Shown in pieces: positions 6,845-23,622 of a DNA stretch of 34,874 nt. A model generated the notes under the pieces. It searched no databases. It had not been told where the DNA came from and saw only the letters and a program-made list of their open reading frames with translations. The first letter of the stretch is position 1, and each line of letters opens with the position of its first letter. The DNA lies in contig SKRC01000216.1 in the NCBI GenBank assembly GCA_007118695.1, positions 1 to 34,874 on the forward strand, read 5' to 3'. Position numbers and translations under genes: made by a program. Origin of the DNA: Balneolaceae bacterium. GTDB taxonomy: Bacteria; Bacteroidota; Rhodothermia; Balneolales; Balneolaceae.

Positions 6845-7312
6845 TCAAAGTTTTACAATCTGTTTGTATACATTTGTCAGCTGTCGATGTTCGAAAACCC
6901 GCATTTTACAGAGGAAAATACCGGCCCCGTCCGTTCAGGATGCGGGACAAACAGCAGAACCGGATGAACCAATATTCCAAATGCCCCGAAAAGCAAAAAG
7001 GTCTGTTAATCATTTTAAACCCTCAAAATCCCGGAATAATTTCTTATCACAGCCTTACGTCGAAACCCATTTCATCATGCGGGATTCAAGGTACCAATCG
7101 TACCTGAAAAGTACAGGTTAAACTTAACGTACCGGTAATGATTTTCTGATACCCGGTCATATGAATGGATTATTATCCATTTAATCAAATGATATGTACA
7201 TTAAAACAGCTTTTTGAATGGATCTCTGAAGAATTTTGGCGGTTTCGATTTTTTCCAGATTCGGGCAGGGACTTTCTTCTGATGGTTTTAAAAGGCTCAA
7301 AATCAGACAATA
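6845..7312. other. Intergenic space between divergent genes
   Basis: 468 bases between the minus-strand hydrolase and the plus-strand acyltransferase, presumably holding both promoters. Short reading frames here have no gene-like composition or recognisable product. The only local structures I see are the palindrome TGTATACA near 6864-6871 and a small inverted repeat ACCTG-N7-CAGGT near 7100-7118. No convincing promoter of the Bacteroidota type (TTTG then TAnnTTTG at correct spacing) was found. Confidence 0.5.
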
Positions 7313-18826: not shown

Positions 18827-19208
18827 ATAAATTGGATTGGATAGTCAGGGTAATCAGTGTAGTGTAAATGACCAGTTTTTCCATTATTTGTTTCTGAAAA
18901 AATCACTTGCAGGCGGATAATATGGTAAGGTACTGAGAATTCCTGTGGATTCTAACCTGCATTTTCCAGTTTCTGCACGGATGCTGTTTATGTAAAAGCG
19001 GTTAAAAACTGTTGGTACATGAATCCCAAAACTGTCATTGGAACAATGAATTCGGCCCCGGTATGTGTGTACGGGACTAGCAAAGCGGGCCGGTACCGCC
19101 GACAGGGCCGAGGTTCAAACAGGACCGGGGTTCAGACAGGGCCGAAACCATGTCATGGCCAGGGCCCCGATTTGTCGGATCAAAAAAGGCCTGACGGCTT
19201 CATGCGGG
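18827..19208. other. Intergenic region with an imperfect 17-base tandem repeat
   Basis: About 380 bases between the nupC-like stop and the PpiC lipoprotein start, both on the minus strand. It contains about 2.5 copies of a 17-base unit (acagggccgaggttcaa) at 19102-19151, in a G/C-rich patch unlike the flanks. Just after the nupC-like stop, 19180-19203, a weak GCC-GTCA-GGC hairpin followed by T residues on the minus strand could be a terminator. The GGTTCAAAC here is not part of a tRNA. No gene is supported. Confidence 0.5.
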
Positions 19209-20537
19209 TTAAAATAACATGCCGGCGATTGTAGCCGTCATCAGATTGGCGAGTGTGCCTGCAAAAACGGCCATGATTCCGAATCGTGCAAGATCGGATT
19301 TTCGCCCTGGGGCAATCCCGCCAATCCCTCCAATTTGAATGGCTATGGAAGAGAAGTTGGCAAACCCGCAAAGTGCAAAGGTCGCCATGGTTATCGTTTT
19401 TGCTCCCAGCAGATCCTGCCCGACCAGATCCGCCATTTGCATATAGGCGACAAATTCGTTGAGTACGATTTTTGTCCCGAGAAGCGAACCCATGTTTGTT
19501 GCATCCTCCCAGGGTATACCGATAATAAAGGCTATCGGCGCAAAGAGCCAGCCGAGCAGGGTTTCGATTTTCAGGTCTTCAGCCAACACCCCATTCAAAC
19601 CTGTGAGCTCTCCAAAATGAAACAAAAAGTAATTTCCCATAGCCAATAGAGCGATAAAAGCCAATAACATAGCGCCTACATTTAAGGCGAGTTTTAATCC
19701 GACGCCAGCGCCATTTGCCGCTGCATCTATACCGTTGGCATCCTGTTGTTCTACTTCCATCTTTACGCTGCCCATGGTCAGCGGCTTGCCAAGTTCCGGG
19801 TAGAGAATTTTTGCTATCACCAGGGCTGCCGGAGCAGCCATGAGACTGGCGCCCAGCAGTTGTTCGGCAAACATCAGCCGGCCGACATCCAGGTCCACAC
19901 CGTGGGACATGGCGTAGGAGTGGCCAAGCATCTGTACATAGGCAGCCATCACACCGCCGGCAATCGTAGCCATACCACCGGTCATGACCGCAAGCAGTTC
20001 CGATTGGGTCATTCTCTCAACATAGGGTTTGATCACAAGGGGAGCTTCTGTTTGACCCACAAAAATATTCGATATAACCGACAGGGATTCAGCACCCGAA
20101 GTGCCCAGCATCTTTTGCATTCCCCGGGCCATATATTTTACAATCCATTGCAATATACCATAGTGATAAAGGATTGCGGTGAGTGAGGCAAAGAATACGA
20201 TGGTTGGTAAAACCTGGAAGGCAAAAAAGTTGCCCATGCTGTCTTCCATTCCGGGGCTGCGGGCAAGGTCGCCAAAAATAAACTCGGCTCCTTCGGTAGT
20301 GAAGTCCAGGACAATGACAAAAAAGGAGGAGACCCAGCTGAAGAAGTCCTTCGGCCACCCGAGCGGAGCAAAATAGTACTCCATATCTCTTCCTTTGAGA
20401 ATGAAAACGGCCAGAATGAATTGAATGCCCAAACCGGTACCAACCAGTTTCCAGTCAATGGCTTTTTTGTTCTTGCTAAAGGCAGCGGCCAGCAATATGA
20501 TGGCCGTCATTCCGATGATACCACGTAAAATTTCCAT
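19209..20537 (-). CDS. Concentrative nucleoside transporter (CNT/NupC family)
   Basis: Inner-membrane nucleoside importer driven by a sodium or proton gradient, 442 aa with many hydrophobic helices. The CNT signatures are clear: GQTEAPLVIKPY (the GxxEAP motif, with the Glu that contacts the nucleoside ribose and cation site), MTGGMATIAGGVMAAYV, and the C-terminal FANFSSIAIQIGGIGGIAP. Length and helix number suit the family. Substrates (pyrimidine versus purine nucleosides) cannot be read with confidence. It starts 5 bases after the end of the thymidine kinase remnant on the same strand, so this was probably a nucleoside salvage operon in which import was coupled to phosphorylation. A weak terminator candidate follows the stop. 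Confidence 0.92.
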   Translation of the reverse strand: MEILRGIIGMTAIILLAAAFSKNKKAIDWKLVGTGLGIQFILAVFILKGRDMEYYFAPLGWPKDFFSWVSSFFVIVLDFTTEGAEFIFGDLARSPGMEDSMGNFFAFQVLPTIVFFASLTAILYHYGILQWIVKYMARGMQKMLGTSGAESLSVISNIFVGQTEAPLVIKPYVERMTQSELLAVMTGGMATIAGGVMAAYVQMLGHSYAMSHGVDLDVGRLMFAEQLLGASLMAAPAALVIAKILYPELGKPLTMGSVKMEVEQQDANGIDAAANGAGVGLKLALNVGAMLLAFIALLAMGNYFLFHFGELTGLNGVLAEDLKIETLLGWLFAPIAFIIGIPWEDATNMGSLLGTKIVLNEFVAYMQMADLVGQDLLGAKTITMATFALCGFANFSSIAIQIGGIGGIAPGRKSDLARFGIMAVFAGTLANLMTATIAGMLF

Positions 20538-22948: not shown

Positions 22949-22976
22949 TGCAACTTATAAATACAACAGCTAACCC

Positions 22977-23266
22977 GCATTTCGCTAACGCGTACAAAAC
23001 ATGAGCTCACAAGATAATTGTTTGAAAAGTTATAAATCATTGATCTGCATAATATTCCACCTATTTTTGAACTTTAGCATAAATAACACTCTGTCAGACG
23101 CTGCGAAGTTTGTCCGTCTGCTGTGTTGTCCCGAAAATGGCTTGCTCAACGTACTCGGGTACGTTTCCGCCACCATTTTCGGGACGCCTTGCATACAATC
23201 AAATATCGCTTCGCGTACAAAACATGAGCTTGGTGAGCTCATGTTTTGTACGCGTTAGCGAAATGC
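22977..23266. repeat. Structured intergenic element with nested inverted repeats
   Basis: Perfect 34-base terminal inverted repeats (22977-23010 and 23233-23266) bound a 290-base element. Inside are a 13-base inverted repeat (23128-23140 with 23173-23185) enclosing a 7-pair hairpin (AACGTAC TCGG GTACGTT, 23148-23165), and a 6-base pair CAGACG/CGTCTG (23095-23120). The right end also forms a perfect 19-base-pair hairpin on its own (23212-23230 with 23236-23254, loop TGGTG). No transposase is encoded, so this resembles a MITE or a mobile intergenic repeat. Confidence 0.8.
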
Positions 23267-23622
23267 GAGCTATAGGCTGTGAATTGAATATGAAAGTGGA
23301 CAAGTCTCGTGTCAGCCAGGCGTTGTTGTAGATAAGTCAAAAGGTTTTGCTTCTGGTTATTGATAGGTGTATTGCCAAAGCTGTGTGCATATTATTCAAA
23401 GCAGTCAGGAGTAAAAAATCAAGATTTGTCCCCGTATAATTATGGTTGACTTGTCACCGGGAATTCCAGGCGGGATTCATCCCTGTGGGAAATATTCCTC
23501 AAACAGGGTCCGTTTCCGGGAAAAAAATTCTTTATCTTTCAGACTTATGACAAATCAGGTCTGTTGATCCTGGTTATTTCCGGTAATTTTTTATTGAAAT
23601 CTTAAGAGTGTCAACAGGGTAT
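23267..23622. other. Upstream region of leuS
   Basis: About 355 bases between the inverted-repeat element and leuS, presumably holding its promoter. TTTATCTTTC near 23531-23540 is a weak match to the Bacteroidota -7 element. I see no T-box-like antiterminator and no small gene. Confidence 0.4.

Follow-up and report, generated by a model that had tools for sequence, protein, structure and literature searches.

A Balneolales mobile repeat with a conserved-fold hairpin and terminal arms probably perfected by template switching

What kind of element occupies the gap between two genes of a Balneolaceae bacterium, and why are its ends perfect mirror images of one another? The window (i.e., the whole stretch of 34,874 nucleotides that was analyzed) carries such an element between two + strand genes, one encoding a LuxC-family acyl-CoA reductase (Pfam E 2.8e-6) and the other leuS. 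The original prediction, which named these neighbors correctly, proposed a MITE or structured mobile repeat or else a transcribed structured RNA, and took the perfect symmetry to imply recent formation, mobility, or active maintenance. Our analysis yields an explanation that we consider probable as a whole: the element would be a Balneolales MITE moved in trans, it carries a hairpin whose fold is conserved, and its arms would have been perfected by template switching.

The inverted repeats lie where they were first placed. Specifically, terminal arms of 34 nt (22977-23010 and 23233-23266) are fully complementary, and the perfect match extends to 35 nt (22976-23010/23233-23267) or, at 95%, to 40 nt (22971-23010/23233-23272). 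The internal 13-nt inverted repeat, which is the middle stem of Table 1, encloses the 7-pair hairpin AACGTAC-TCGG-GTACGTT (23148-23165), and the right end alone forms a 19-pair hairpin (23212-23230/23236-23254) with the loop TGGTG. In 1000 Markov-resampled copies of the region that kept its dinucleotide make-up, the longest arm within 320 nt was 14 nt, versus the 35 nt observed. Thus, chance is excluded as the source of the arm symmetry. The folding energy of the region lies 11-12 sd below that of dinucleotide shuffles, and a search of the window for other inverted repeats at that spacing found none longer than 13 nt. The only ORF in the 296-bp element encodes 85 aa (23001-23258) and has no Pfam match, so the claim that the element has no coding capacity stands. 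The element begins CCCGCATTT, ends GAG, and is flanked by CTAA and CTAT; with these flanking 4-mers, it is slightly wider than the interval 22977-23266 that was first proposed.

Table 1. Features of the element and of its immediate flanks (window coordinates).
Feature	Position	Strand	Basis or remark
Whole element, CCCGCATTTC...GCGAAATGCGAG, 296 bp	22974..23269	+	Boundaries from alignment with own-genome copies and G031 copies
Left flanking 4-mer CTAA, putative target-site duplication, YTAR type	22970..22973		4-bp direct repeats in the G031 sister family
Right flanking 4-mer CTAT, putative target-site duplication, 3/4 identical to left	23270..23273		
Left family terminal inverted repeat, CCCGCATTTC	22974..22983	+	Resumes past the insert as TCACAAG (23007-23013)
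Right family terminal inverted repeat, GAAATGCGAG	23260..23269	-	CTTGGTGA precedes, ahead of the insert
23-nt module GCTAACGCGTACAAAACATGAGC inserted in left terminal repeat	22984..23006	+	Not in L002/L003; in L019 with other interior
23-nt module, perfect mirror copy, at matching point of right terminal repeat	23237..23259	-	Not in L002/L003
A+T-rich left interior, outside core hairpin	23014..23104	+	
Core hairpin: outer stem, loop A, middle stem, loop B, inner stem	23105..23207	+	Covariation in 26 Balneolales sequences; cross-phylum occurrence
Loop A, 5' side, TGTGTT here versus family TGCGTT	23122..23127	+	
Loop A, 3' side, GCCTTGC	23186..23192	+	
Middle stem, 5' arm, GTCCCGAAAATGG	23128..23140	+	
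Middle stem, 3' arm, CCATTTTCGGGAC	23173..23185	+	
Innermost core GC-(TC)-AACGTAC-TCGG-GTACGTT-(TCC)-GC, asymmetric internal loop TC/TCC	23144..23170	+	
Right-end 19-pair hairpin: older module copy (23208-23230) plus mirrored insert	23212..23254	+	

The element belongs to a repeat family, with well over 100 relatives across the source genome and related ones. The source genome, a draft of 313 contigs, holds 57 local matches to a 371-bp query, down to short end pieces, and the best relatives are L002 (97% over 231 bp) and L003 (93% over 202 bp). Several copies sit at contig ends, as is usual for repeats in a draft assembly. The family ends read TA-R-CCCGCATTTCTCAC ... GTGAGAAATGCGGG-Y-TA, with an A+T-rich left part and the hairpin on the right. 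The end pattern AAATGCGGGYTA (CCCGCATTT-type, one mismatch allowed) has 170 matches in this genome versus 38 for the backward control, a roughly fourfold excess, and short palindromic modules (e.g., CCCCGACCGCCGTCGGGG, ACTCCGTGGGGAAAAGATG, and GCTTCGCGTACAAAAAATGAGC) sit in one arm or another of many copies.

A concrete link to DNA mobility is established via a complete (closed) genome of the same order, G031, which carries a sister family. Ends of the type CCCGCATTATTCAC have 217 matches there versus 0 for the control. Sampled full copies in G031 range from 226 to 254 bp and are mostly of one or the other of these lengths, and relatives of the window element span 74-282 bp. The outer 4-mers of the G031 copies are direct repeats, namely TTAA/TTAA, TTAG/TTAG, CTAG/CTAG, CTAA/CTAA, and GTAG/GTAG. 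Identical flanking 4-mers occur in 16 of the 21 sampled copies, versus 4.9 expected when left and right are re-dealt (0 of 20,000 shuffles was as high), and in 17 of 31 pairs, versus 4.7 expected, across 1.2 Mb of G031 that overlap the 21-copy sample. At one locus an empty site is seen as well: G031 reads CTCGA-ATAA[226 bp]TTAA-GCCGGAAACACA, an insertion located after a stop codon (L196), and CTCGATTAGGCCGGAAACACA runs uninterrupted in G025, a genome of the same genus. Thus, the sister family inserts at YTAR, duplicates 4 bp, and moves as DNA. For the family, the proposed identity of MITE or structured mobile repeat holds on four counts: many copies, shared short terminal inverted repeats (TIRs), 4-bp duplication of YTAR (16 of 21 copies in the sister family), and one empty site. 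At the window copy, the target duplication is imperfect (CTAA/CTAT, three of four positions identical), and the empty-site comparison, positive at the G031 locus, found no match for the window locus in the congener G001.

Two short G031 elements lack the core hairpin. One, of 132 bp (G031:C1:1424000), retains an intact CTAA/CTAA target duplication, which suggests either that transposition needs no more than the ends or that the hairpin disappeared later; the other, of 74 bp (G031 3834438), lies between TTAA and TTAT.

We propose that the window element is a nonautonomous DNA transposon (MITE) whose family would have spread through Balneolales, with short TIRs of the CCCGCATTTCTCAC type and with insertion at YTAR and 4-bp duplication as shown for the sister family in the complete relative genome. 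A YTAR target with a 4-bp duplication fits DDE transposases of the IS5 or IS701 type. The most likely route is mobilization in trans by an enzyme of this class that shares the target choice of IS5 or IS701. In a search that covered some transposase families, a transposase-bearing copy was found neither in the listed parts of G031 (about 1.7 Mb) nor in the 1.2 Mb of G031 that were read, and the DDE_Tnp_1 and DDE_5 loci examined have no matching TIR pair. One candidate for an autonomous element, 2279 bp of G031 with CTAA/CTAA flanks, was rejected: it consists of a degenerate end, two genes (named by eye as MscS-like and short-chain dehydrogenase), and a normal 226-bp copy. An IS630/mariner origin, prompted by the TA ends, was also rejected, since the source genome has no DDE_3 gene and the duplication is 4 bp, not 2. 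As a separate observation, two IS701-like (DDE_5) elements of G031 (L251 and L252) each adjoin one lone family end and look like insertions into family copies.

The core hairpin has its own evolutionary signature. In an alignment of 26 distinct Balneolales hairpin sequences (A2), 95.4% of pairs are standard, and two-sided changes occur at 10 of the 25 hairpin pairs. The covariation score is 0.270, versus 0.096 for shuffled alignments (0 of 500 as high), a control inflated by sequence kinship, and versus at most 0.107 for slid structures, a control free of that weakness. It is the unpaired parts that are conserved, namely loop A (TGCGTT/GCCTTGC) and loop B (TC/TCC). The stems vary by compensatory substitutions while the two asymmetric internal loops stay constant. 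We infer that some factor recognizes the core fold or that the fold serves as a structure in 3'-UTRs or intergenic regions. On the opposite strand, loop B reads GGA/GA and could form tandem G-A pairs.

One could argue from these patterns that the core is a functional RNA under selection, acting as an mRNA 3'-end stabilizer or as an RNase III or antisense site, and that the mobile shell is only its vehicle. We hold this to be a real possibility, short of probable. The compensatory changes with constant loops would suit it, as would copies located directly past stop codons in several genomes and an Uliginosibacterium copy with a terminator-like hairpin immediately after it. Comparable roles have been reported for ERIC and Correia elements (PMC10969869), and by analogy with them the present element may act as a 3'-UTR structure. 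However, template switching alone can yield compensatory changes (PMC8794818). Because switching can create or repair perfect hairpins, such changes alone do not prove RNA selection; they are compatible with an RNA role but also with a DNA-level one. Also against an RNA core, no Rfam family matches the element above its gathering score, the locus has no terminator-like site, its promoter-like sites are no commoner than in shuffles, and the 132-bp copy lacks the hairpin between intact CTAA/CTAA duplications. Known RNA families were rejected on the Rfam output itself, in which the four sub-threshold hits are animal or viral miRNAs that score on any hairpin. An integron attC site was rejected by eye: GCTCAAC fits one half-site (RYYYAAC), and the partner half, GTTRRRY, is absent.

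Template switching is also our preferred source of the perfect arms. Only the window copy shows the perfect symmetry over 34-35 bp. The terminal repeats of L002 and L003 are short and imperfect and lack the insert at both ends, and the window copy carries the 23-nt GCTAACGCGTACAAAACATGAGC twice, as exact mirror images located at corresponding points of the two arms. L019 has the 23-nt insert in its left arm, with a different interior. Given an exact mirror insert at the same position, we infer homogenization by template switching and not a recent jump. The original reading of perfect symmetry as recent formation or mobility therefore survives in part: the family is mobile, but near relatives at 97% and 93% have no arm insert. 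The perfect arms would have arisen after or apart from transposition, when, on this proposal, a template switch within a quasi-palindrome during replication copied the 23-nt module of one arm, mirrored, into the other. Quasi-palindromes are perfected by template switching in E. coli (PMC7202029), and template switching can create perfect hairpins and produce compensatory changes (PMC8794818). Such "correction" of a quasi-palindrome fits the mirrored module better than recent transposition does, and the evidence points to it.

Alternatively, the 35-bp arms could stem from an inverted end swap, i.e., recombination or conversion between oppositely oriented repeats instead of switching within a hairpin, which we judge rather unlikely. 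Mosaic and chimeric copies are common (e.g., L018), and in one G031 copy (L187) the inner hairpin is oriented oppositely to the outer part, both of which would suit an end swap. Yet mirroring is confined to a short tract of about 34 nt, stops within the TIR at either side, and leaves the remainder of both arms unchanged, as expected of a short nascent-strand switch.

How general is arm homogenization by template switching? Among 25 arm pairs of the source genome, an arm is more similar to its partner in the same copy than to the arms of other copies (p = 0.0004 over 10 nt, p = 0.003 over 13 nt); these pairs were curated by hand, a possible source of bias, in place of automatic pairing. With automatic end pairing in the same genome, which is dominated by spurious pairs, arm matching is not significant (p 0.10-0.20). 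For 12 copies in a Clostridia genome, the mean arm duplex energy is -11.3 kcal/mol versus -7.0 kcal/mol for swapped arms (p < 5e-5). The recent G031 copies L190 and L193 have unmatched arms, and this, together with the null result of automatic pairing, indicates that homogenization is occasional. If read correctly, the window copy offers a clear natural example of a long perfect palindrome made by copying one arm into the other, and perfect symmetry need not signal recent transposition. In two copies of that Clostridia genome, a draft (G045; L220 and L222), the outer hairpin arm reaches into the 3' coding end of the gene upstream, a stretch that the opposite arm mirrors. Both this mirroring and the inverted inner hairpin of L187 fit template switching at quasi-palindromes as well.

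The inner core of the hairpin extends well beyond Balneolales. A scan of 84,980 species genomes with the pattern GCTCAACGTACN{2,6}GTACGTTTCC returned at least 80 matching stretches, where a rough calculation gives fewer than 1 by chance. Most of the matches listed are from Balneolales; the others listed come from Zoogloea, Uliginosibacterium, other Burkholderiales, Moraxellaceae, Myxococcales, Desulfocucumis, and several Clostridia or Bacillota. The core lies in dispersed repeats of Bacillota and Pseudomonadota and is present also in Myxococcota; the pattern was not found in IMG/VR viral contigs. Stems around the core differ in sequence, yet they are paired in most cross-phylum matches. A sequence-free descriptor of the inner core (2 pairs, TC, 7 pairs, loop, 7 pairs, TCC, 2 pairs), run on a set of collected loci, gave only variants of the core motif, with paired changes in the inner stem (AACGTAC, AGGGTAC, AGCGTAC) and in the GC step (CC/GG).

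An inner-core model, R1, was built from pattern-selected sequences, and its reach is biased to that inner stem. R1 finds 22 copies in the source genome, 48 in G031, 13 in Desulfocucumis, 17 in a Clostridia draft genome, and 1-9 in the others tested. At E <= 1e-4 and with stricter filters, in wider samples, it matches 10 of 395 genomes of the source phylum and 9 of 398 genomes of the Zoogloea phylum. Several of the latter genomes are 6-7 Mb in size with up to 14 copies, and the elements of those that were read combine the same inner core with ends of the CTAG type. The cores of different phyla likely share common descent. More tentatively, the core (GC-[UC]-7 bp-loop-7 bp-[UCC]-GC in covarying stems) may mark one undescribed cross-phylum superfamily of structured mobile repeats, with different TIRs in each lineage and a fold read by a common host or transposition factor. 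MITEs in bacteria are usually taken as lineage-bound remnants of one insertion sequence. Homology of the cores would mean that the fold is read by something conserved, whose identity could then be tested.

That the repeats instead move as single-stranded DNA, with the hairpin recognized by a HUH/Y1-type transposase in a REP/RAYT-like manner and the inverted repeats forming the hairpin foot, is very improbable: conservation of the fold rather than of stem sequence, recurrence of the core in genomes with different termini, and Y1_Tnp genes in 9 of 14 genomes tested would agree with it, but the sister family shows a 4-bp target duplication and an empty site, which IS200/IS605-type Y1 transposases are not known to produce, the source genome has only a 49-codon Y1 fragment and the congener none, and the pattern scan placed no hairpin copy beside the Y1 genes read.

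Read as a MITE moved in trans, the element works by layout like ERIC, RUP, and Correia-type MITEs, and general MITE features are present. The TIRs of Correia/NEMIS and RUP are probably different from those of the present family. A further difference is that no partner IS was found here. Correia/NEMIS and RUP are likewise small noncoding repeats with TIRs, their transcripts form hairpins, and their mobility is attributed to an IS transposase acting in trans (PMC3733652, PMC10969869). ERIC, or IRU (RU-1), a 127-bp enterobacterial MITE, shares the intergenic multi-copy state, TA ends, imperfect TIRs, a long interrupted hairpin, and the lack of a protein (PMC2759123); TA at both ends within the inverted repeats also occurs here, in the YTAR flanks. 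In contrast, the TIR sequence is unlike that of ERIC, and the published ERIC duplication is TA versus 4 bp of YTAR here. A resemblance in loop motif (TGCGTT ... GCCTTCC) was noted by eye only. Membership in ERIC, which seemed likely from the architecture, was rejected after R1, run with filters off on two E. coli ERIC copies, gave a best E of 1.7, which is noise. REP/REPIN-RAYT systems resemble the family as dispersed extragenic palindromes with conserved mismatches (PMC3116915, PMC3733652) and were rejected on the 4-bp duplication in G031, the TIRs at YTAR, and the lack of hairpin copies beside the Y1 genes read. The R0-R200 families of P. fluorescens likewise occur as many intergenic copies that contain inverted repeats and hairpins (PMC2718517), and the R1-positive Pseudomonadota repeats, with up to 14 copies, resemble them by description only. 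Literature searches, which left most subscription journals outside their scope, found no description of the family, and searches on the core motif letters and on MITEs in Balneola returned nothing relevant.

Several smaller observations concern the copies themselves. In the source genome, L028, L033, L131, L135, and L140 contain chains of the small palindromes CGCGTAGCG, CACGGAGTG, and CCCGACGGCGGTCGGG expanded within family copies, with spacers of about 13 nt such as CTCATTTTTTGTA and TACATCTTTTCCC. L018 (G000:C125, about 20130-20345) is chimeric, the 3' half of one subfamily being spliced into the hairpin of another beside the inner stem. Within the window, 6895-7085 holds AAAACCCGCATTTTACAG, which resembles a family end but is degenerate; its possible partner, ATCATGCGGGATT, lies about 180 bp further on. 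Finally, a second stretch with inverted ends, TAACCTGCATTTTCC...TTCATGCGGGTTA at 18953-19215, occupies most of an intergenic gap and is possibly a degenerate or different member of the family.
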